From NCBI RefSeq assembly GCF_024385575.1, contig NZ_JANFMV010000001.1, forward strand, positions 186,001 to 250,000: 64,000 nucleotides of DNA. Direction: 5' to 3'. The DNA is from Rhizobium sp. NRK18. Its GTDB lineage: Bacteria; Pseudomonadota; Alphaproteobacteria; Rhizobiales; Rhizobiaceae. Positions within the stretch are counted from its first letter, which is position 1. The number at the start of each line of letters is the position of its first letter. A program made the translations under genes and the position numbers. Of this stretch, positions 2,869 to 45,686 are shown one piece after another. The notes under the pieces are model-generated. The model did not search any database and was not told the origin of the DNA. It was given only the letters and a program-made list of their open reading frames with translations.

Positions 2869-3507
2869 TCAGATCCGGCTGGTCAGCAGCTTCAATCCGG
2901 CCAGGCCGAAGAACAGCCCCATGGCCCCTTCGATGACGCGGCGCGCCTTCGCATAACCCCGGACCATGGGTTCGGTGGAAAAGAGCACCGCGAGCATGTT
3001 GAAGGAAGTGACGCCGATGATCATCGCGCCGCCGATGAAGATGTAGAGGACTTCAGGCGGCGCGTGCGCCGGCAGGCCGAGCGATACCAGGGAAATCCAG
3101 ACAAAGATCGCCTTCGGATTGGTCAGGTGGATACCGAGGCCGCGCAGATAGAAGACCTTCAGGGGCAGGTCTTCATGGCTCATCCTTTCAACGGACCCGT
3201 AGTTCGCCTTGACGGCCGAGCGAAGGTTCTTCCAGCCGAGCCACAACAGGTAGCATCCCCCGGCAATCTTCAATCCTGTCAGCGCGTAGGCGAACTGGGT
3301 GAGCAGGGCCGACAGGCCGAGTGCCGCCAGTATCGCCCAGATGAAAGAACCGGTGATGACGCCCGTTGCCAGCGCCATGCCGCGGCTGCGGCCATTGGCC
3401 ATGGCTGTTCCGGCGATGGCTAGCGTCGCCGGGCCGGGGCTGATGACGGCAAGGAAGTAAACGCTCCAGGCGACCGCGAGATGCGGCAGGATAGTCGGCA
3501 GGTCCAT
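2869..3507 (-). CDS. LysE/RhtB-family amino-acid exporter
   Basis: This 212-residue membrane protein has about six hydrophobic segments and the family signature ISPGPATL near residue 25, followed by GMALATGVITGSF. LysE/RhtB proteins export amino acids or their analogues across the inner membrane. I chose the ATG at 3507, which gives the usual length; upstream codons in the frame run into the neighbouring proC region and lack family similarity. The gene lies downstream of the ProC-type reductase on the same strand with an 89-base gap, so co-transcription is possible. The substrate cannot be read from the sequence. Its 3' end abuts the end of ispG, which is convergent. Confidence 0.87.
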   Translation of the reverse strand: MDLPTILPHLAVAWSVYFLAVISPGPATLAIAGTAMANGRSRGMALATGVITGSFIWAILAALGLSALLTQFAYALTGLKIAGGCYLLWLGWKNLRSAVKANYGSVERMSHEDLPLKVFYLRGLGIHLTNPKAIFVWISLVSLGLPAHAPPEVLYIFIGGAMIIGVTSFNMLAVLFSTEPMVRGYAKARRVIEGAMGLFFGLAGLKLLTSRI

Positions 3508-3596
3508 GGGGTCCTCATCGGCAGGGATAGCCGATTGTTGATGCGACCTTGCCGCGCAGGCAAGCCCGCACTTGTCACGGCTGCAATTTGGGTCGA

Positions 3597-4373
3597 TCAG
3601 CCGGCTGCATCCTTGAAGCGTTTGAGCACCGCGTCCAGTCCCTCCGATAGCTGATGGAAGGCGCCCTTGTCCTGCAGGTGTTTGACAACCTGCTCGTTGA
3701 TGCCGCCCGCCGTCGTGTGTTCGTCGGCCAGCTCTGCGAAACTCGCCTCCGCATTCAGCATGGCCGTGTTGGTCAGGCCGCGCATCATGGTGGCGACGAA
3801 GCGCCGGGCGTCGGGGTAGGCGATGCCCTGGCCGGCCAGCCAATGCGCGATCGTCTCCGCGAAGGTGAAGACGGATGCCATGCTGGCGGTCGCGGCCGAC
3901 AGCGCATCGAATTCGGCGGCGGTCTCCACCTCGATTGCCACACCGAGGCGGTTGAACAGGGCCGCGGCCTCCTTGTCCGGCGGGAAGACGGGCGTCGGTC
4001 CCATGCGCTGCGCCGTCGATGGCAGGGGGATGACGCGCGTCACCCTTTCTGCGGGCGAGGCCATGGCCTTCACCTCATCGAGCCCGATGATCGCCATGAG
4101 GCTGACGACGTGATGGTCGGCTCGGAATGCCAGGTCCTTGAGCACATCTGCCGCGACCTGAGGGCGGACGGCAATCAGCACCATCCCGGAACCGTCGAGC
4201 ACGGCCTGGTTGGAGGCCGCAACGGAGACATTGGCAAAGCGGGCGGCAAGCGAGGCGGCGATCTCCGCATTGCGGGGGGAGAGGAGGATGTCGGGCGCGC
4301 TTTTGTCGTCCGTGCTCAGCCCTTCCACGATGGCCGCCGCAATGGCGCCCGTTCCGATAACTCCAATGGTCAT
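3597..4373 (-). CDS. pyrroline-5-carboxylate reductase family protein (ProC-like)
   Basis: This 258-residue protein starts with the Rossmann dinucleotide motif VIGTGAIAAA (residues 5-14) and has the ProC-type second half, including MMRGLTNTAML and DEHTTAGGINEQVVKHL. ProC enzymes reduce 1-pyrroline-5-carboxylate to proline with NAD(P)H. The protein is slightly shorter than typical ProC (about 270 residues). Its first glycine motif reads GTGAIA rather than GGGNMA, and the C-terminal signature DEHTTAGG departs from the canonical DEVTSPGGTT. It may therefore be a paralogue rather than the housekeeping enzyme, so I give no gene symbol. The family is clear and the substrate is less certain. Confidence 0.8.
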   Translation of the reverse strand: MTIGVIGTGAIAAAIVEGLSTDDKSAPDILLSPRNAEIAASLAARFANVSVAASNQAVLDGSGMVLIAVRPQVAADVLKDLAFRADHHVVSLMAIIGLDEVKAMASPAERVTRVIPLPSTAQRMGPTPVFPPDKEAAALFNRLGVAIEVETAAEFDALSAATASMASVFTFAETIAHWLAGQGIAYPDARRFVATMMRGLTNTAMLNAEASFAELADEHTTAGGINEQVVKHLQDKGAFHQLSEGLDAVLKRFKDAAG

Positions 4374-4475
4374 ATTCTGCCTGCCCGTTTGCTATTCATG
4401 TGCCTGAAGACCATAGGAAACATGACGGGCAAACGCCACCTCTGCCCTGATCCTGAGCGCTCGGACGAATAAATT

Positions 4476-4508
4476 GCTCCCGCCTCTCAAGGGGAGAAAG
4501 GCGGGAGC
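4476..4508. repeat. hairpin downstream of the flavin reductase gene
   Basis: Perfect 9-base arms GCTCCCGCC (4476-4484) and GGCGGGAGC (4500-4508) enclose a 15-base loop. On the minus strand the hairpin follows the end of the flavin reductase gene and is followed by AATTTATT, so it could be a weak terminator. A dispersed extragenic palindrome is an alternative. Confidence 0.45.
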
Positions 4509-4589
4509 GGTGTTGCCGCCTCGGGTCTGCACCTCGCCAGAAGGTCACGGGTGGCAGGCGGCAATCTGCAACTGGCTGTCAGACCGGCC

Positions 4590-5168
4590 TCAGGCGGCGA
4601 TCTCGTCGTAGGGCGCCCTGGCGCGGGCGTCGCGCAGCACCGATCCCCACCAGTCGAGATGCGCGAGAAGGTGGGCCATCTTGGCCGCTTCGCCGGCACC
4701 GTCCGACAGATGTCCGGTCGGGTTGAAGCGCCCCGAGGGGTTTGCAAAGCTGACGACGTCGCGGATCGTCACCGCATGCAGTTCGGCGAAGACGAGGCGG
4801 AGCTGTTCGACCGCGCGCAGGCCTCCGGAAATACCGCCATAGGAAACAAAGGCGACCGGCTTTGCGCGCCATTGATCCTTTCCGCTGTCGATCAGTTGTT
4901 TCAGCGGCGCGGTGAAGGAGTGGTTGTATTCCGGCGTGACGATGAGGAAGGCGTCGGCCGCGTCGAGCCGGCGCCAGAGATCGAACAGGCCCTCGCTATG
5001 GCCGCCGTGGCGTGCGGGAAGCGCCAGGTCCAGCGGATCGATGATGTCGATCGCATAGCGGTCCTGGCGTTCGATCTCGCCCACGGCCCAGCGGACGATG
5101 CGGTCGCAGAGCCGCCCCTCGCGGGTGCTGCCGTAAATGACCGCGATCCTCAGTCTCTTCTCTTGCAT
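4590..5168 (-). CDS. NADPH-dependent FMN reductase (SoxR-linked)
   Basis: This 192-residue flavodoxin-fold protein belongs to the NADPH-dependent FMN reductase family. The phosphate-binding loop IYGSTREGR is at residues 11-19 and the conserved PEYNHS is at residues 79-84, followed by SYGGISGG. The start at 5168 (MQEKRLR) places the loop at the usual distance. The gene is divergent from soxR, with 78 bases between the two start codons, and a near-perfect SoxR box lies in that gap. It is thus very likely a SoxR target induced by redox-cycling compounds. Small flavin or quinone reductases of this kind are known SoxR targets in bacteria lacking soxS. The exact electron acceptor is unknown. Confidence 0.88.
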   Translation of the reverse strand: MQEKRLRIAVIYGSTREGRLCDRIVRWAVGEIERQDRYAIDIIDPLDLALPARHGGHSEGLFDLWRRLDAADAFLIVTPEYNHSFTAPLKQLIDSGKDQWRAKPVAFVSYGGISGGLRAVEQLRLVFAELHAVTIRDVVSFANPSGRFNPTGHLSDGAGEAAKMAHLLAHLDWWGSVLRDARARAPYDEIAA

Positions 5169-14491: not shown

Positions 14492-15217
14492 ATGAGCAGG
14501 GTGGCCATCGTTACGGGTGGGTCGCGTGGTATCGGCGCGGCGATCTCGATCGCATTGAGGGATGCAGGCTACAAGGTTGCCGCAAACTATGCCGGCAATG
14601 ACGAGGCGGCAGCGAAGTTCAAGGACGAAACCGGCATTCCGGTGTTCAAGTGGGACGTCTCGTCCTACGATAGCTGCGTCGAGGGTGTCGCCAAGGTGGA
14701 AGCCGAGCTCGGGCCGGTCGACATTCTGGTCAACAATGCCGGCATCACGCGCGACGCGATGTTCCACAAGATGACGCCGGACCAGTGGAACGCCGTCATC
14801 AACACCAACCTGACGGGCCTGTTCAACATGACCCATCCGGTGTGGAGCGGCATGCGTGACCGCGGCTTCGGCCGGGTCATCAACATTTCCTCGATCAACG
14901 GCCAGAAGGGCCAGGCCGGACAGGCCAATTATTCCGCGGCAAAGGCCGGCGATCTCGGCTTCACCAAGGCGCTTGCCCAGGAAGGCGCGATGAAGGGGAT
15001 CACCGTCAATGCGATCTGCCCTGGCTATATCGGCACGGAGATGGTGCGCGCCATTCCGGAAAAGGTGCTCAATGAGCGCATCCTGCCGCTGATCCCGGTC
15101 GGACGCCTCGGCGAACCGGAAGAGATCGCGCGCTGCGTGCTGTTCCTTGCCTCCGACGATTCCGGCTTCATCACCGGGTCGACGATTTCGGCCAACGGCG
15201 GACAGTTCTTCGTCTGA
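14492..15217 (+). CDS. phaB: acetoacetyl-CoA reductase (NADPH)
   Basis: PhaB reduces acetoacetyl-CoA to (R)-3-hydroxybutyryl-CoA, the monomer for PHB synthase. The 241-residue short-chain dehydrogenase has the cofactor loop TGGSRGIG (residues 8-15), NNAG at 81-84, and the catalytic set Ser134, Tyr147 and Lys151 (NISSINGQ and YSAAK). The ATG at 14492 follows a GGGAGGA site. It lies downstream of phaA on the same strand and is closed by a GGCGCC hairpin terminator. Length and motifs agree with bona fide PhaB rather than FabG, and the phaA neighbour supports this. Confidence 0.96.
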   Translation: MSRVAIVTGGSRGIGAAISIALRDAGYKVAANYAGNDEAAAKFKDETGIPVFKWDVSSYDSCVEGVAKVEAELGPVDILVNNAGITRDAMFHKMTPDQWNAVINTNLTGLFNMTHPVWSGMRDRGFGRVINISSINGQKGQAGQANYSAAKAGDLGFTKALAQEGAMKGITVNAICPGYIGTEMVRAIPEKVLNERILPLIPVGRLGEPEEIARCVLFLASDDSGFITGSTISANGGQFFV

Positions 15218-15268: not shown

Positions 15269-15332
15269 TTTCCGGCAAAGGTTAAAATCCGGATCAAAAG
15301 CGCCCCAAGTTGCGCGATCGGCAACTGAAAAT

Positions 15333-15440
15333 ATGGTTAAAATATTGTAAATCAACAATATTTAGTGATGAACAAACCGGGAAATCTTCCATGTCAGCGA
15401 TTCGTCGCCGATTCGTTCCGGCTTTGACCTGAAGGTTAAT
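15333..15440 (+). repeat. direct repeat R1 of the LytTR-flanking family
   Basis: This is one of two ungapped 108-base copies (the other is R2 at 16951-17058), identical at about 94 of 108 positions. It contains an AAATATTGT / ACAATATTT hairpin (9-base arms, 6-base loop), the block GTGATGAACAAACCGGG, and the tandem 11-base unit GATTCGTCGCCGATTCGT. The tandem unit holds two GANTC sites at 15399 and 15410. It lies beyond the 3' end of the minus-strand membrane protein gene. Confidence 0.9.
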
Positions 15441-15472
15441 GGCGGTGCGTCTTGCGGCCGGATACTCGCTGC

Positions 15473-15979
15473 TCAGGCGGACATCGCCGGGCTGTTTTTT
15501 CCAGCCCGGAGATGCATGATCGAGCGTCCCACCATGAAGCAGATCGACAGGCCGTTGACGAAGCTCCAGGTGGCCTGCATCGGCCCGCTTGCAGCGGCGG
15601 CGGGATTGATCACCGTCAGGACGCCATCGACGTAGTTGACCGTGAAGATGACCATGAGCAGTCCAAGGGAAAGCCATTCGCCCTGCAGGAGCAGCTTGCC
15701 GTTTGCCAGACGTCGGGTCTGTCTGGCCGGCTTCAGTGTCAGAAGGGCGGAGAAGGCTGCGATGATGCCCGCGGAAGTCGAGGCGAGAACGTCGGCATCC
15801 AGGCCAGCCATGAGCAGCCTGCGGAGAGCGAGCAGGGTCAGGATCGAGGGCAGCAGGATGAGCGAGTTCGGAGAGACCTCACGTGTCCGGGTCCGTTTCA
15901 GCCCGCGATAGATGAGCAGCGCCAGGATGAGCCATACCCAGGCGGGTGTGTGGGCGAGAATGTCGATCGGCATTTGCAT
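15473..15979 (-). CDS. small polytopic membrane protein paired with LytTR regulator
   Basis: This 168-residue protein has about five hydrophobic segments: residues 10-27 (TPAWVWLILALLIY), 36-54, 62-80, 104-122 and 135-152. I see no catalytic motif. It resembles short uncharacterised membrane proteins often left as domains of unknown function (possibly the DUF6622 type; I cannot verify this). It is divergent from a membrane-anchored LytTR regulator, with 95 bases between the starts, which suggests co-regulation. In described LytTR regulatory systems a small membrane protein inhibits the regulator, and that role is a hypothesis here. MPIDIL at 15973 is an alternative start. A repeat copy (R1) lies just past its 3' end. 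Confidence 0.78.
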   Translation of the reverse strand: MQMPIDILAHTPAWVWLILALLIYRGLKRTRTREVSPNSLILLPSILTLLALRRLLMAGLDADVLASTSAGIIAAFSALLTLKPARQTRRLANGKLLLQGEWLSLGLLMVIFTVNYVDGVLTVINPAAAASGPMQATWSFVNGLSICFMVGRSIMHLRAGKNSPAMSA

Positions 15980-16074
15980 GATGTCCTATGCTCCAGTACT
16001 CAGGATGAAAGATGTGGCGAAGGGACGCTTGGCATGTCGCCAGCGGAGAACGAGGGCAATGACGGGTTCGTATA

Positions 16075-16881
16075 ATGCGTGAGGGCTACGTGGACGGCTC
16101 GTCCTTGCATTTGGCGCTACGCGAAATGCAGGCGGAATTTTCTAGCTGGCGAACCTGGGTCGCACTCGCCGTCGTCATCGCGCTGCTAATCGTTTCCGGC
16201 CCTTTCCAGACCATGACCACGCTGTCGCTGCCACAGCGCAGCCTGTATTGGTGCGCGCTGGTCGTCACCACATTCGTCGCCGGCAATTTCGCAGGTACAT
16301 GGTGCAATTACGCCATACGCGCCCGCGAATGGCGACAGCCCTGGCGATTCATGACGGTCGGGGTCAGCGCCGGCGTTCCGGCCGCCATAGCGGTCACAGC
16401 CATCAATGGTACCGCCTTCGGATGGCAGATGCTTGCGCTGGCAGAGATCGTTGAGCTTGCCGCTTACAGCATCTTCATCAGCGTTTTGGTTGCCGGACTG
16501 TTCGCGCTCTACAGCAGGTCGGCGGCCGAGGCGCCGGTCGCCGTTGATGCGGGTGCGGAAGATGATCTGCCGGCCATCCTGCGCCGCCTGCCGTTTCCGA
16601 AACGCGGGCGGCTCGTGTCGATCTCCGTCAGCGATCATTACGTCGAAGTCACGACGCTGAAAGGGCGGGAAATGCTGTTGATGCGCCTGCGCGATGCGGT
16701 GGCGGAGTGTCCTCCGGAAAAGGGTCTGCAGATTCACCGCTCACACTGGGTGGCTCTTGCGGGTGTGAAAGGCGTCTATCGCAGCGGCGGCAAGGTGATG
16801 GTGGAGACGGTGGCCGGCGATCACTTTCCGGTCAGCCGGTCCTATCTCGCCGATGCGCGGGCAGCGGGCCTGAACGCCTGA
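16075..16881 (+). CDS. membrane-anchored LytTR DNA-binding regulator
   Basis: The 268-residue protein has four predicted membrane segments (about residues 25-44, 56-76, 90-110 and 117-140), a short acidic linker, and a C-terminal LytTR domain (about 170-265). That domain contains RGRLVSISVSDHYVEV, the IHRSHWVAL segment and VSRSYL, all typical of LytTR. It lacks a receiver domain, so it is not a classical two-component regulator; a signal would have to come through the membrane part or a partner protein. It is divergent from a small membrane protein, and 108-base direct repeats flank the pair. Those repeats carry tandem ATTCGTC/ATTCGTT units similar to sites bound by the LytTR protein AlgR. 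Targets are unknown. Confidence 0.88.
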   Translation: MREGYVDGSSLHLALREMQAEFSSWRTWVALAVVIALLIVSGPFQTMTTLSLPQRSLYWCALVVTTFVAGNFAGTWCNYAIRAREWRQPWRFMTVGVSAGVPAAIAVTAINGTAFGWQMLALAEIVELAAYSIFISVLVAGLFALYSRSAAEAPVAVDAGAEDDLPAILRRLPFPKRGRLVSISVSDHYVEVTTLKGREMLLMRLRDAVAECPPEKGLQIHRSHWVALAGVKGVYRSGGKVMVETVAGDHFPVSRSYLADARAAGLNA

Positions 16882-16950
16882 TCCGGCCTCGCAAAGGTTA
16901 ACAACGATCGCCAAACTGCTGTCCGGAAACGGCCCATAGGTCGCAAATTT

Positions 16951-17058
16951 ATGGTTAAAATATTGTAAATCCACAATATTTAGCGGTGAACAAACCGGGA
17001 AATGACGGAAGTCAGTGATTCGTCGCCGATTCGTTCCAGCTTTGGACCGAAGGTTAAT
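16951..17058 (+). repeat. direct repeat R2 of the LytTR-flanking family
   Basis: This copy matches R1 over 108 bases without gaps and has the same orientation. It keeps the AAATATTGT / ACAATATTT hairpin, GTGAACAAACCGGG, and GATTCGTCGCCGATTCGT with GANTC sites at 17017 and 17028. It lies 69 bases after the LytTR gene. The variable part is mainly a 12-base stretch between the two conserved blocks. Confidence 0.9.
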
Positions 17059-17182
17059 CGAGGCGTTGTTTTGGCGGTGCAAAGGTCGTCTTCGCGGCAG
17101 GTCGCTGTTGGGCCCTGATATCAGGAATTCGGCAGGAAGTCTTAACGCCGGACAGTCGAACTTGCGTCGATGAGGATTTCCT

Positions 17183-17317
17183 GATTCACTATCTGGTGTG
17201 ACGGCGATATTCGGGTGGAAGATGTAGCGGTGAACAAAGCCTGAATCTGCGCGAGTCAGCGATTCGTCGCCGATTCGTTCCTTTGCTGTTCCGAATCTTA
17301 ACCGTTTGGTTTGACTC
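17183..17317. promoter_or_regulatory. cluster of seven GANTC (CcrM-type) methylation sites
   Basis: GANTC occurs at 17183, 17243, 17253, 17261, 17272, 17293 and 17313, seven sites in 135 bases, where about one per 250-290 bases is expected by chance. GANTC is the target of the alphaproteobacterial cell-cycle methylase CcrM. The cluster overlaps repeat copy R3 and lies directly upstream of the SUV3-like helicase, so methylation-dependent transcription is possible. Confidence 0.6.
17225..17303 (+). repeat. partial repeat R3 of the LytTR-flanking family
   Basis: The 79 bases align without gaps to 16981-17059 of R2 at about three quarters identity. TAGCGGTGAACAAA and GATTCGTCGCCGATTCGT are preserved exactly. 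The hairpin half of the element is missing. It lies about 140 bases before the helicase start, so it may be part of that gene's promoter. Confidence 0.82.
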
Positions 17318-17440: not shown

Positions 17441-20400
17441 GTGACGATCCAACCCATGATCCTGAGCGGCCGCGGCGTGACCGCGATGCTCGGTCCGACC
17501 AATACCGGCAAGACCCACTATGCCATCGAGCGGATGCTGGCCTACGGGACGGGCGTCATCGGCCTGCCGCTGCGCCTGCTTGCGCGCGAGGTCTACAACA
17601 GGCTGGTGGAGCGGGCAGGCGTCGCCAATGTCGCGCTGGTGACGGGAGAGGAAAAGATCTCGCCGCCAAGAGCGCGCTATTCCGTCTGCACCGTCGAGGC
17701 CATGCCGAGGGAAACCAGCGCCGCTTTCGTGGCGATCGACGAGGTGCAGCTTGCCGGCGACCTGGAACGCGGGCACATCTTCACCGACCGCATCCTGCAT
17801 CTGAGAGGCCGCGAGGAAACGCTGCTGCTCGGCGCCGACACGATGCGGCCGATCCTGAGGCAGATGCTTCCCGGCATTACCCTTGTCGAGCGGCCGCGCA
17901 TGTCGCAGCTCTTCTACGCGGGCCAGAAGAAGATCACGCGACTGCCGCAGCGAAGCGCGATCGTCGCCTTCTCGGCCGAAGAGGTCTATGCGATCGCCGA
18001 ACTCATCCGCCGCCAGCGCGGCGGCGCGGCGGTCGTGCTCGGCGCGCTGTCGCCCCGGACCCGCAACGCCCAGGTCGGCCTCTATCAGGCCGGCGACGTC
18101 GAATATCTGGTCGCGACCGATGCGATCGGCATGGGCCTGAACCTCGATGTCGATCACGTCGCCTTCGCGCAGGACCGCAAGTTCGACGGGTTCCAGTACC
18201 GCAATCTCAATCCGGGCGAACTCGGCCAGATCGCCGGCCGCGCCGGACGCCATGTCCGCGATGGCACGTTCGGGGTCACCGGACGGGCGGAGCCGTTCGA
18301 CGAGGAACTGGTCGAGCGTCTGCAAAATCATGAATTCGATCCGGTGAAGGTGCTGCAGTGGCGCACAAAGGCGCTCGATTTCTCCTCGCTGAACGCCTTG
18401 CGCCGGAGTCTCGAAACACCGCCGCAGGTGCCGGGCCTGACCAAGGCGCTGCCGGCGATCGATCACGAGGCTTTGGAACTGCTCGCTCGCTATCCGGAGA
18501 TCATCGATCTCGCCACCACGCCCGAGCGCGTCGAGAAGCTCTGGGAAGCCTGTGCGCTGCCCGATTATCGCCGCATCACCCACGCACAACACGCCGACCT
18601 GATTTCGACCCTCTATTCGGATCTCGTTCGCCATGGCGTCGTCAACGAGACTTTCATGGCCGAACAGGTCAGGCGGTCGGACCGGACGGACGGGGAAATC
18701 GATACTTTGTCGGCGCGCATTGCGCAAATTCGAACTTGGACTTATGTGTCCAATCGCCCAGGGTGGCTAACCGATCCGACACACTGGCAAGAAAAGACGC
18801 GTGAAATCGAGGACCGGCTGTCCGACGCGTTACATGAGAGGTTGACGAAACGCTTTGTTGATCGCAGGACTTCTGTGCTCATGAAGCGGCTTAGAGAGAA
18901 TGCGATGCTGGAAGCAGAAATCAGTGTGAATGGCGATGTCTTCGTGGAAGGACATCACGTCGGTCAGTTGGCCGGTTTCCGGTTTTCGCCGGTCTCCGGG
19001 GGCAGCGGACCTGACCAGAAGGCGGTCGAGGCTGCGGCCCAGAAGGCGTTGTCGCTGGAATACGAAGCGCGCGCCGCGCGGCTTTACGCGTCCGGCAACA
19101 GCGATCTCGTCATCGGTTCGGACGGGTATGTGCGTTGGCGGGGCGAACCCGTCGCGCGGCTTTCGTCCGGCGATCACATTCTTCATCCGCGCGTGATCCT
19201 GCTCGCCGACGACCCGCTGAGCAGCAATGCGCGCGAGCATGCGACCGCGCGCGTCGAGCGCTTCGTCAATCATCACATCGCGACCGTCCTGAAGCCGCTT
19301 GACGATCTGTCGCGCGCCGAAGACCTGCAGGGTCTCGCCAAGGGCCTGGCCTTCCAGCTGGTCGAAAATCTCGGCGTCCTGTTCCGCCGCGACGTCGCCG
19401 ACGACGTGAAGTCGCTCGATCAGGATGCGCGCAGCTCGATGCGCAAGTACGGCGTACGTTTCGGCGCATACCACGTCTTCATGCCGCTTCTCCTGAAGCC
19501 GGCTCCGGCGGAACTGATCACGCTTCTCTGGGCGCTGGCCAATGACGGCCTGGACAAGCCCGGCTACGGCGACCTGATCCCGGTTCTGGCCGCCGGCCGC
19601 ACGTCGATCGTGACCGACAACACGTTCGAACGCGCCTTCTACAAGCTCGCCGGCTTCCGCTTCCTCGGCAAGCGCGCGGTGCGCATCGACATTCTCGAGC
19701 GCCTGGCCGACCTGATCCGTCCGCTCCTGCAGTGGAAGCCAGGTTCCGGCGCACGTCCGGACGGCGCCTATGACGGCCGCCGCTTCACGGCGACGACGGG
19801 CATGCTGTCTATCCTGGGGGCGACGCCGGACGACATCGAGGAAATCCTCAAGGGTCTCGGCTACCGTGCCGACCAGGTTTCCGCGGAAGAAGCCGCAGCA
19901 TTCCTGGCGAGCCAGGGCGGCGAGGCGCCTGCCGCTGAAGGTGACGCCGCCAAGGCCGATGCCGCGGCGGAAAGCACCGAGCAGGATGACGCCGCTGACG
20001 ATGCCGACGTTGAGGAAAGCACGACTCCGGCTGAAAGCACCGCCGCAACCCAAGAGGTGAGCGCCGCCGCAACCGAGACGGCCGATGCGCCGGCCGCTGA
20101 AAAGGCCGAGACGGACGCCGCCGCGGCCGACGCTGCCGTGGCCGAAGAACCGAAGCCGGTTCTGCTCTGGCGCATGGGTGGCCGCAGCGACAACCAGCAA
20201 CGCCGCCCGCACGGCCAGCAGAAGCAGGCCCGCTCCAATCGCGGCGAGGACGGCCGCAGGGATCAGCCGCGCGAAAATCGCGAGAACCGCGACAATCGCG
20301 GCAAGGGCGGCAAGCCCAGCCGCAATCAGCGGCACGACGGTCCGCGGCCCGAGAAGGGGCAGCGCAACGATCGTCACCAGCAGGCCAAGCCGGTGCGCAA

Positions 20401-20470
20401 GGAAAAGCCGATCGATCCGGATTCACCTTTCGCAAAGCTTGCTGCGCTGAAGGAACAGATGAAGAAGTAA
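17441..20470 (+). CDS. SUV3-like DExH RNA/DNA helicase with low-complexity tail
   Basis: This protein of about 1009 residues starts with a superfamily 2 helicase core of the mitochondrial SUV3 type. It has Walker A GPTNTGKT (residues 18-25), DEVQ in the Walker B position (100-103), LGADTMRPIL, then ATDAIGMGLNLD and QIAGRAGR in the second RecA domain. Family members unwind RNA or RNA:DNA duplexes, and the mitochondrial protein works with a degradosome. From about residue 820 the sequence becomes an Ala/Glu/Asp-rich stretch and then a Arg/Asn/Gln/Lys-rich stretch, ending in SPFAKLAALKEQMKK. The start is uncertain: I used the GTG at 17441, and ATG 17456 or GTG 17435 are alternatives. An S4 RNA-binding protein follows after three bases. 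Confidence 0.9.
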   Translation: MTIQPMILSGRGVTAMLGPTNTGKTHYAIERMLAYGTGVIGLPLRLLAREVYNRLVERAGVANVALVTGEEKISPPRARYSVCTVEAMPRETSAAFVAIDEVQLAGDLERGHIFTDRILHLRGREETLLLGADTMRPILRQMLPGITLVERPRMSQLFYAGQKKITRLPQRSAIVAFSAEEVYAIAELIRRQRGGAAVVLGALSPRTRNAQVGLYQAGDVEYLVATDAIGMGLNLDVDHVAFAQDRKFDGFQYRNLNPGELGQIAGRAGRHVRDGTFGVTGRAEPFDEELVERLQNHEFDPVKVLQWRTKALDFSSLNALRRSLETPPQVPGLTKALPAIDHEALELLARYPEIIDLATTPERVEKLWEACALPDYRRITHAQHADLISTLYSDLVRHGVVNETFMAEQVRRSDRTDGEIDTLSARIAQIRTWTYVSNRPGWLTDPTHWQEKTREIEDRLSDALHERLTKRFVDRRTSVLMKRLRENAMLEAEISVNGDVFVEGHHVGQLAGFRFSPVSGGSGPDQKAVEAAAQKALSLEYEARAARLYASGNSDLVIGSDGYVRWRGEPVARLSSGDHILHPRVILLADDPLSSNAREHATARVERFVNHHIATVLKPLDDLSRAEDLQGLAKGLAFQLVENLGVLFRRDVADDVKSLDQDARSSMRKYGVRFGAYHVFMPLLLKPAPAELITLLWALANDGLDKPGYGDLIPVLAAGRTSIVTDNTFERAFYKLAGFRFLGKRAVRIDILERLADLIRPLLQWKPGSGARPDGAYDGRRFTATTGMLSILGATPDDIEEILKGLGYRADQVSAEEAAAFLASQGGEAPAAEGDAAKADAAAESTEQDDAADDADVEESTTPAESTAATQEVSAAATETADAPAAEKAETDAAAADAAVAEEPKPVLLWRMGGRSDNQQRRPHGQQKQARSNRGEDGRRDQPRENRENRDNRGKGGKPSRNQRHDGPRPEKGQRNDRHQQAKPVRKEKPIDPDSPFAKLAALKEQMKK

Positions 20471-21061: not shown

Positions 21062-21400
21062 GTGACTTATGTCGTGACGGATAACTGCATTCGCTGCAAA
21101 TACACAGACTGCGTCGAAGTCTGCCCCGTGGATTGCTTCTACGAAGGCGAGAATTTCCTGGTCATCCATCCCGACGAATGCATCGATTGCGGCGTTTGCG
21201 AGCCGGAATGTCCTGCCGAGGCGATCAAGCCGGATACCGAGCCGGGCCTCGACAAGTGGCTGAAAATCAATACGGAATATGCCTCAATCTGGCCAAACAT
21301 CACGACCAAACGTGATCCGCTTCCCGAAGCGACCGAGATGGATGGCGTCGAAGGCAAGTTTGAAAAGTTCTTCTCCGAAAAGCCCGGTTCGGGCGATTGA
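21062..21400 (+). CDS. fdxA: seven-iron ferredoxin FdxA
   Basis: This 112-residue ferredoxin has the cysteine pattern of the 7Fe [3Fe-4S][4Fe-4S] type. By comparison with Azotobacter ferredoxin I (offset by one), Cys9, Cys17 and Cys50 would bind the 3Fe cluster and Cys21, Cys40, Cys43 and Cys46 the 4Fe cluster; Cys12 and Cys25 correspond to the non-ligand cysteines. The sequence ends in the long C-terminal extension typical of alphaproteobacterial FdxA. The start is a GTG at 21062 preceded by GGAGTG. It is a soluble electron carrier, and its partner is unknown. A hairpin terminator follows, separating it from carD. Confidence 0.96.
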
Positions 21401-21779
21401 TCGGAGTGCATATCCTTCCGTTACGGAAGGTTTCGTTTGAAGGATTCCGTTGCATGCCGGCGGTGAACCGTCGGGCATGCCCGGTGGGCATGTATTGATT
21501 GATTTTATCATATTTTTGTGGTAGACATTCTCCATCTGGTCCACCACGCGGCAGCTATGTGCCTCAATAATCACGAAAGCTACAAAACAATTCGCGCGCG
21601 AAATCGGCATCGTCGTTGATGTCATCTACTGATTTCGATCTTCGGAGCGTTTTGTTCTCTGCATGCATTCGACCAGAGCAGAGGAAATGTACCCGTCCGT
21701 GCATTTCATTTATCCGGGCCTCACTGACCCGACTCCGGCCTTGTTGGGCCGGCAGTGTAACAGGGAGTTTTTGAATCGA
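21401..21779 (+). other. 379-base fdxA-carD intergenic region: terminator and long carD leader
   Basis: The first part holds the fdxA terminator (CCTTCCG / CGGAAGG, 21414-21430). Around 21450-21490 there is an imperfect GCATGCC / GGGCATGC hairpin. An A/T-rich stretch at 21494-21530 is the likely carD promoter area. Near the carD start, CACTG (21722-21726) and CCGGCC (21735-21740) can pair with GGCCGG (21747-21752) and CAGTG (21753-21757), a structured leader. I see no gene here. Confidence 0.55.
21414..21440 (+). terminator. terminator after fdxA
   Basis: Perfect seven-base arms CCTTCCG and CGGAAGG with a TTA loop are followed by TTTCGTTT. Confidence 0.7.
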
Positions 21780-22355
21780 ATGACGACCCAGCAGAAAAAA
21801 TCTTCCACGCGCCACGGCTTCAAGACCGGTGAATCCATTGTGTATCCGGCTCATGGCGTCGGCATGATCTCCGCTATCGAAGAGCAGGAAGTGGCGGGCA
21901 TGACGCTCGAACTTTTCGTGATTGATTTCGAAAAGGACAAGATGCGCCTCAAGGTTCCGGTCGCGAAGGCCGTGAGCATCGGCATGCGCAAGCTGTCCGA
22001 GACCGACTTCGTCGATCGCGCCCTCAAGGTCGTCCAGGGCAAGGCCCGCATCAAGCGCACCATGTGGTCGCGCCGTGCGCAGGAATATGATGCCAAGATC
22101 AATTCCGGCGATCTGATCTCGATTTCCGAAGTCGTCCGCGACCTCTATCGCGCCGAGAACCAGCCTGAGCAGTCCTATTCGGAGCGTCAGCTCTATGAAG
22201 CTGCCCTTGACCGCATGGCGCGCGAAATCGCCGCCGTCAACAAGATGTCCGAGACCGAGGCCGTACGCCTGATCGAGGTCAATCTCGCCAAGGGTCCGAA
22301 GCGTGGCAAGTCTGTCGAAGACGATGCGGCCCAGGAAGAGGAAGAAGCCGCGTAA
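21780..22355 (+). CDS. CarD-family transcriptional regulator
   Basis: CarD proteins bind the beta subunit of RNA polymerase and stabilise open promoter complexes. The 191-residue protein has the N-terminal RNA-polymerase-interacting Tudor-like domain (about residues 12-70, starting GFKTGESIVYPAHGVGMI, with a FVIDFEKDKMRLKVPV strand pair). It also has the helical C-terminal domain with MWSRRAQEYDAKINSGD and a final acidic run. The ATG at 21780 gives the normal rhizobial N-terminus. A leader of more than 300 bases with a hairpin precedes it, and a strong terminator follows. It lies beside rpoH2, so the region encodes two transcription-initiation factors in a row. The name LdtR/CdnL is also used for such proteins, so I give no symbol. 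Confidence 0.93.
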   Translation: MTTQQKKSSTRHGFKTGESIVYPAHGVGMISAIEEQEVAGMTLELFVIDFEKDKMRLKVPVAKAVSIGMRKLSETDFVDRALKVVQGKARIKRTMWSRRAQEYDAKINSGDLISISEVVRDLYRAENQPEQSYSERQLYEAALDRMAREIAAVNKMSETEAVRLIEVNLAKGPKRGKSVEDDAAQEEEEAA

Positions 22356-22383
22356 GTGCTGGTTTCATTCATTGCGACTTTTC

Positions 22384-22419
22384 GAAACCCGGCCTCAGAG
22401 CCGGGTTTCATTTTTTTTG
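22384..22419 (+). terminator. terminator after carD
   Basis: Perfect nine-base arms AAACCCGGC and GCCGGGTTT with a six-base loop are followed by CA and eight T residues. Confidence 0.92.
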
Positions 22420-22479
22420 AAGAGACGACCCAAACTCTCACATTCGTGTGATTTTTTTCCTCTGCCATTGCATTGCCGC

Positions 22480-22505
22480 GAAACTGGGTTCACATAATAA
22501 TCGTT
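22480..22505 (+). promoter_or_regulatory. candidate general-stress (RpoE2/EcfG-type) promoter of rpoH2
   Basis: GAAAC at 22480-22484 and CGTT at 22502-22505 are 17 bases apart. This matches the GGAAC-N16/17-CGTT pattern of alphaproteobacterial EcfG-type sigma factors at all but one position. In Sinorhizobium, rpoH2 is known to depend on RpoE2. The leader would be about 160 bases. Confidence 0.4.
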
Positions 22506-22673
22506 CGCCTGACTTATTAATTGTTTTCTCGCTGGCGGGTAGTGAACAATTTCGCCGTTGGATCGTTGTACCAACGTAGGTTGCGCGGACGCATACAGAT
22601 GAAGCGACCTGAATCCCTTGGGTTCCGGCGCCTTTCATAGATTTAAGACTTTATTTGCCCCAGGAGAAGTCTG

Positions 22674-23534
<861 letters not shown>

Positions 23535-26939: not shown

Positions 26940-26964
26940 CCTTGGAACATTCGTTTGTCCGCGG

Positions 26965-27020
26965 CCCTTTTTAGCGACTTCTTTAACGTGGCTGCAAGCC
27001 GGCCGGCCAAATCACCACGG
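26965..27020 (-). promoter_or_regulatory. SAM-II riboswitch controlling metA
   Basis: On the minus strand the segment contains GTGGTGATTTGGCCGG, then CGGCTTGCAGCCAC and AAAGAAGT, and ends GCTAAAAAGG. This is the conserved core of the SAM-II aptamer: GTGG pairs with CCAC, and the GATTTGG region forms the pseudoknot with the 3' GCTAAA. SAM-II elements are characteristic of alphaproteobacterial metA and metZ leaders. Confidence 0.95.
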
Positions 27021-27096
27021 AACGCCTATGAAATAGCGCCAAGTTGAATGAGAATCAAGAAAAAGCGCACTCAGGGGAATGTGGGCATGCCCCACG

Positions 27097-35864: not shown

Positions 35865-35972
35865 GGGACAAGCGCAATAGCGCAAAACCGGGGGCGAGGG
35901 AAAGGGAAACCAGAGGCGGCAATTGCCGAATGTCCTTGTCATATAGCCGAGGGCGAAGTAAATCTCGCGGCA

Positions 35973-36074
35973 GATCTAACGGGGTGCACCTTCCGCAATC
36001 GCGGGACGACGCTGAGAGGCCTGAAGCCAACCCGCAGAACCTGATCCGGCTAACACCGGCGGAGGGATTAGACG
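35973..36074 (+). promoter_or_regulatory. TPP riboswitch controlling thiBPQ
   Basis: The segment contains ACGGGGTGC (35979-35987), the conserved GCTGAGAGG (36011-36019), and AACCTGATCCGGCTAACACC with GGCGGAGGGA at the 3' end (to about 36070). These are the thi-box elements binding the pyrimidine and pyrophosphate of TPP. It ends about 50 bases before thiB. No T-run terminator is visible, so control by hiding the Shine-Dalgarno (GGAGGCGCGGG) is likely. Confidence 0.97.
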
Positions 36075-36122
36075 CATCTCATCAGCGCGCTATCCCAACC
36101 AGCTAAACAGAGGAGGCGCGGG

Positions 36123-45611: not shown

Positions 45612-45686
45612 TGGAGCGGGCGAAGGGATTCGAACCCTCGACCCCAACCTTGGCAAGGTTGTGCTCTACCCCTGAGCTACACCCGC
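45612..45686 (-). tRNA. tRNA-Gly(GCC), CCA encoded
   Basis: Read on the minus strand the sequence folds as a full cloverleaf: acceptor GCGGGTG / CGCCCGC (one G-T pair), D arm TAGCTCAGGGGTAGAGC, anticodon loop CTTGCCAA (GCC), and T arm GAGGGTTCGAATCCCTT. The discriminator is T and CCA is encoded. It reads GGC and GGT codons. No integrase or attachment duplication lies beside it. Confidence 0.98.

Follow-up and report, generated by a model that had tools for sequence, protein, structure and literature searches.

Direct repeats at a helicase locus of Rhizobium sp. NRK18 belong to an old DNA element, a possible docking site for control proteins

Introduction

Several described systems resemble parts of the element discussed here. 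Direct repeats with a 7-4-7 arrangement are the geometry of OmpR/PhoB-type regulators. LexA operators of Rhizobiaceae have the form GTTC-N7-GTTC, and TTAACC is presumably a CtrA half-site. RIME is a dispersed intergenic repeat with a length near 108 bp, and hemE is a neighbour of the replication origin. A regulatory locus called mgpS has reportedly been the subject of a paper on Rhodobacter sphaeroides; the gene name is the same as that of the Sinorhizobium meliloti helicase discussed below.

The CcrM/GcrA promoters of alphaproteobacteria are similar in that GANTC lies upstream of the gene; in Caulobacter, 11 of 96 such start sites have more than one GANTC within 50 bp (PMC4287350). Other papers describe GANTC as 99% methylated in S. 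meliloti (PMC11711589), GANTC sites of the same species as occluded by MucR (PMC5172544), and GANTC as enriched 4.4-4.7-fold in GcrA peaks of B. abortus, some of them at repair genes (PMC6813329). In contrast to these promoters, the present element is much denser (up to 8 GANTC within 120 bp), has a fixed spacing and is duplicated.

Results and Discussion

The repeats and their locus

The window, i.e. the whole stretch of 64,000 nucleotides that was analysed, contains two direct repeats, R1 (15333-15440) and R2 (16951-17058). As the sequence-only reading had proposed, they align over 108 bases without a gap, with exactly 14 mismatches. When the two intergenic stretches are compared without gaps over 108 bases, the best match reaches 94 identities, compared with at most 49 in 200 shuffles. 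A repeat finder lengthened both copies to 114 nt (15332-15445 and 16950-17063, plus strand, 86% identity) and placed the partial third copy R3, also proposed earlier, in register with them at 17219-17304 (86 nt, plus strand), 192 bp 5' of the helicase start used here. Over its shorter extent (17225-17303, 79 bases) R3 has 54 bases in common with R1 and 59 with R2. Conserved blocks around a variable interior were likewise found as described: the core string GATTCGTCGCCGATTCGT is unchanged across R1, R2 and R3, and the interior varies. In the repeat alignment the core GATTCGT-N4-GATTCGT of R1 is located at 15399-15416, that of R2 at 17017-17034 and that of R3 at 17261-17278, all on the plus strand. 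A palindrome, AATATTGT-N6-ACAATATT, is present in R1 (15341-15362), near-identical in R2 and absent from R3.

phbB and DUF6622 converge, and R1 is located in the gap that separates them; it is therefore the promoter of neither. R2 follows the LytTR gene and R3 precedes the gene of a Suv3-like helicase. The upstream neighbour (14492-15217, plus strand; Pfam adh_short_C2, E 1.2e-60) encodes an acetoacetyl-CoA reductase for which the name phbB is our reading. The genes for a DUF6622 membrane protein (15473-15979, minus strand; Pfam E 2.9e-07) and a LytTR-domain protein (16075-16881, plus strand; Pfam E 1.2e-10) are divergent, as had been noted, and are probably bystanders. The gene that accompanies the element encodes the DEXQ helicase (17453-20470, plus strand; Pfam DEXQc_Suv3, E 5.2e-26, and Helicase_C), with 17453 as our choice of start codon. 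Beyond the helicase and S4 genes, translations of 21062-23534 include ferredoxin-, CarD- and RpoH-like reading frames. Further features of the window are a SAM_alpha riboswitch (26949-27028), a TPP riboswitch (35970-36084) and a tRNA gene (45615-45686).

From the product and the neighbouring locus numbers we infer that SMc03877 (mgpS) of S. meliloti is the helicase of the element locus. SMc03877 is among the RNA helicases raised under acid stress (PMC4941405).

Distribution across genomes

In the genome of origin (4.5 Mb, 5 contigs) the 17-mer core with up to two mismatches occurs solely at R1, R2 and R3. When the linker was left free and as many as three mismatches were allowed, 21 places were found (3 exact, 1 with two mismatches and 17 with three) versus 6 for a reversed-pattern control, an excess of weak matches. 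A search of the same genome for a wider regulon with GAACAAANNNNGAA gave 8 places, three of which are R1-R3, and 4 for the reversed control. The element thus appears locus-specific, with one locus per genome.

In the family, a search for the 17-mer that fixed the linker and tolerated a single mismatch was positive in at least 174 of 297 genomes, and 26 of the 30 family loci fetched adjoin the helicase gene. A set of 80 helicase loci, the closest ones from named genomes, was picked on the helicase alone, ignoring the element. The element is present upstream of the helicase in 78 of these non-independent samples, with 1-5 copies each and an exact copy in 68, where a copy was accepted with up to two mismatches over 14 fixed core bases. 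At 74 of the 80 loci a copy lies 130-260 bp ahead of the helicase gene. The other six (L058, L077, L090, L106, L121 and L131) lack one within 300 bp, and L058 and L077 have none whatever. All these copies run in the same direction as the helicase gene; one minus-strand match lies elsewhere in L068. The proximal copy remains with the helicase where the stretch has no phb gene (e.g. L056, L057 and L061). A glycine-zipper lipoprotein gene, missing from the window, is found upstream of the helicase in 66 of the 80 relatives.

In an even draw from the order outside the family, 16 of 284 genomes contain the exact pattern GATTCGTNNNNGATTCGTTC. Fifteen such loci were fetched: 8, from four families, lie upstream of the helicase, 3 between exonuclease III and secreted-protein genes, and 4, all from one family, elsewhere. 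In the second group (L139-L141) the core pattern occupies a convergent gap, the gene names being our reading of the translations. The third group (L143-L146) has the exact core away from the helicase and might belong to a wider regulon of the same reader; in L143 the exact core pattern is flanked by the inverted half-sites GAACGAATC and GATTCGTTC. Beyond the order, the pattern was found in 1 of 333 genomes, where it occurs three times, with one copy about 250 bp before a helicase gene (59% identical); two copies of this genome contain a third GATTCG at the 11-bp period. R1, R2 and R3 thus represent an old DNA element which many rhizobia and related bacteria have in front of one and the same RNA-helicase gene.

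Two classes of copies

Two classes of copies can be distinguished, helicase-proximal ones (n=75, including R3) and extra ones (n=70, including R1 and R2). Both have AATATNTNG-like bases, GTGAACAAA, a GTC and GATTCGT-N4-GATTCGTTC in common. The core GATTCGT-N4-GATTCGT, with half-sites 11 bp apart, stands behind GAACAAA. Its conservation is partly built in, since the copies were chosen by the core pattern itself; GAAC, in contrast, lies outside the selection bases and is nevertheless invariant in the 74 aligned proximal copies. The proximal alignment comprises 74 of 75 copies; L128 was left out, where a weaker match (4869) was taken as proximal and a better one (4807) was placed among the extra copies. 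The alignment of extra copies comprises 50 of 70.

The copies bracketing the DUF6622/LytTR pair are 85% alike in the window and 61% alike in G316, a genome of another genus, and 30 pairs of extra copies have a median identity of 55%. R1 and R2 thus look as if they had been duplicated late or had undergone gene conversion. L054 likewise has close copies: five are present at one locus (3188-4810), three of them 80-88% alike, which reads as recent local multiplication.

A dense GANTC cluster and a phased core

The proximal copies contain on average 4.84 GANTC sites per 132-bp window and the extra copies 2.14, compared with 0.36 in noncoding background windows, which were defined by stops in all six frames and not by annotation. 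None of the 1793 background windows has more than three sites, so that GANTC is in clear excess. In R3 the cluster spans 17183-17317, with sites at 17183, 17243, 17253, 17261, 17272, 17293 and 17313. Relative to the core, the proximal copies have GAATC at -18, GAGTC at -8 and GATTC at 0 and +11, and often further sites at about -78, -53, +32 and +58. Within 1.1 Mb from 81 loci, all 72 clusters (at least 5 GANTC per 120 bp) start upstream of the helicase, at a distance of no more than about 500 bp. In other families the cluster is absent, and 2-3 sites are present.

The N of GANTC is nearly fixed around the core and at -78; therefore a sequence-specific reader must act too. At the outer sites (about -90, -53 and +58) the N varies, which points to GANTC itself. 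We propose, with belief and doubt about equal, that the repeats are copies of a conserved composite DNA module that binds proteins and controls the Suv3-like helicase locus; R1 and R2 would be tandem duplicates. A candidate protein would read the direct repeats of the core on one face of the helix, and R3, as a dense CcrM target, would couple transcription of the helicase gene to replication by methylation, probably via GcrA. One point against this composite module is the fixed N at the core GANTC sites, which may be due to a sequence-specific reader and not to methylation.

A rival reading is the operator of a single OmpR/PhoB-type regulator alone, with the GANTC and LexA-form sites as by-products, which we consider unlikely. 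The copies have 7-bp half-sites in one orientation at an 11-bp period, as OmpR/PhoB-type operators do, bearing in mind that they were selected by the same pattern; the linker is free, a third repeat at the same period is seen in L218-L219, and the N at the core GANTC sites is fixed. The outer GANTC sites with their differing N, however, are improbable by-products. Moreover, the element stands at one locus and not in a regulon, and GATTCGT matches no operator known to us.

LexA-form boxes and TTAACC half-sites

GTTC-N7-GTTC is present in 56 of 75 proximal copies and 2 of 70 extra copies (background 0.5%). As in the lexA promoters of Rhizobiaceae, a T precedes and a C follows the second half. 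The element differs from these LexA operators by a spacer of 6 in 16 of the 75 proximal copies, which is unfit for LexA, by mostly low scores and by its junction to another core. Scores were obtained with a position weight matrix (PWM) built from 30 lexA promoters, all of which contain GAAC-N7-GAAC. The box in R3 (17277-17291, plus strand) scores 16.1, inside the leave-one-out range of the 30 lexA-promoter boxes (14.7-30.6); R1 and R2 fall short of this range. Above the 99.99th percentile are 33 of the 75 proximal copies, with a proximal median of 4.9 versus 28.9 for lexA boxes, and 21 of the 70 extra copies, the latter at a different place on the GAACAAA side. Five loci of a single family, not Rhizobiaceae, have a perfect GAAC-N7-GAAC as their upstream pair. 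The central GATTCGT pair was also considered as a LexA site and rejected, since 0 of 75 proximal and 0 of 70 extra copies exceed the 99.99th percentile there.

TTAACC is found in 51 of 70 extra copies and in 4 of 75 proximal ones, R3 being one of the four (background 4.2%). In the window, GGTTAA/TTAACC half-sites are located at 15335-15340, at 15434, 16953 and 17052, and in R3 at 17298. The extra copies thus share TTAA-containing half-sites with CtrA sites, but the full motif TTAA-N7-TTAA occurs in none of the 145 copies (0/75 proximal, 0/70 extra).

For the composite module these sites would add two inputs. The LexA-form box in R3 could couple helicase transcription to DNA damage via LexA. 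R1 and R2 would be duplicates that keep the core and, through their CtrA-like TTAACC half-sites, may receive CtrA input; they would serve as auxiliary sites (looping or titration) and not as promoters of the adjoining genes. The 6-base spacers, the low LexA scores of many proximal copies, the high-scoring extra copies, the TTAACC in R3 and the lack of the GANTC cluster in other families all speak against the module.

DNA or RNA

The conserved blocks could also be target-pairing stretches of transcripts from tandem small-RNA genes. Tandem copies at one locus fit small-RNA families, and the proximal copies can fold (z is -2.55 in R3 and -3.45 in L094), with 88.9% of the cells of the proximal alignment paired in the named hairpin. 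On the other hand, among the proximal copies (73 distinct rows) not one pair is altered in both of its bases, and the extra copies, despite the shared core, have no consensus fold (z -0.09 for R1 and 0.58 for R2). Forward terminators follow just 3 of 75 proximal and 4 of 70 extra copies. Between 15100 and 17600 there are 7 consensus terminators against 2.3 expected, none of them right behind a copy core in a manner that recurs in relatives. Rfam gave no match at the locus. Hence the element has neither the covarying structure nor the terminator of a small RNA, and we regard this explanation as quite improbable. A promoter scan of the region found 1 match (0.8 expected), which does not favour the composite module either. 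The conserved blocks, the free 4-base linker and the lack of RNA covariation are in line with the earlier suggestion of selected protein-binding sites in a duplicated element.

Origin proximity, LytTR and dispersed repeats

In 13 of 13 genomes the distance between the element and hemE is 73-495 kb. Together with the position of R1 in a convergent gap and the CcrM- and CtrA-like sites, this would fit a site for chromosome maintenance (replication or segregation control) retained near the origin. DnaA boxes, however, are not enriched (4/75 proximal and 3/70 extra copies versus 1.8% background), the proximal copy stays with the helicase gene, and shared synteny by itself could preserve the distance to hemE. 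Such a role is therefore very improbable.

The sequence-only reading had connected the repeats with the LytTR gene, as operators of its product in an exchangeable cassette bounded by repeats. Here the pair stands between R1 and R2, and G316 has a similar arrangement: copy, DUF6622, LytTR, two copies and helicase, plus a further copy, the two proteins being 43% and 47% identical. The link did not survive the comparison with the 80 relatives' loci, where the LytTR gene is found at none, DUF6622 at 1 and the element at 78. LytTR domains are encoded in 123 of 294 family genomes, with two in the genome of origin; among 20 listed family genomes that lack them (there are 151 more), 11 contain the element pattern, the match of G017 lying off the locus. 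Conversely, L006 and L015 have the DUF6622-LytTR pair and no element in the stretch fetched. Nor is the cassette a fixed feature: in relatives the copies surround other genes or stand in tandem, and in four congeners of G316 (L154-L157) three copies are present at the locus and the LytTR gene is missing from it. LytTR-type repeats common to the DUF6622/LytTR gaps of the window and G316 are limited to a few 7-mers, some of them over coding ends. Consequently, LytTR operators in such a cassette have only a slight chance of being the right explanation, and the element probably has nothing to do with the pair of membrane-protein genes that it flanks here. The divergent pair itself recurs in L006, L015, L152 and the window (15473-16881) and is possibly a sensor pair of its own.

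An ordinary dispersed repeat of the RIME kind, the outcome that the earlier reading had named as its own refutation, shares the intergenic position and the length near 108 bp, yet has next to no chance of being correct, because the genome holds three close copies at one locus and not copies at many unrelated places.

The earlier statement that the element belongs to no described family agrees with the empty Rfam search and with the literature covered. In open full-text literature, which excludes most subscription papers, the core strings had no match; a LexA consensus string had none either, and intergenic mosaic elements as a topic yielded nothing on this element.

Conclusions

To judge from its sequence, the element has the appearance of a site where control proteins dock. 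It is noncoding, has hardly changed in sequence throughout a bacterial order, stands at a single locus per genome, and holds the densest cluster of CcrM sites in the 1.1 Mb examined. It offers an entry point to a putative core-binding regulator and to the action of methylation clusters, and a testable hypothesis for the control of the helicase called mgpS in the S. meliloti literature. On a more speculative and doubtful level, the array might be a dedicated origin-proximal sensor of cell cycle and damage, in which the proximal copies would register CcrM remethylation and LexA, the extra copies CtrA, and a protein bound to the phased GATTCGT would link all of this to the helicase or else to replication. 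If true, such a sensor array would be a multi-input regulatory locus of the Hyphomicrobiales not described before.
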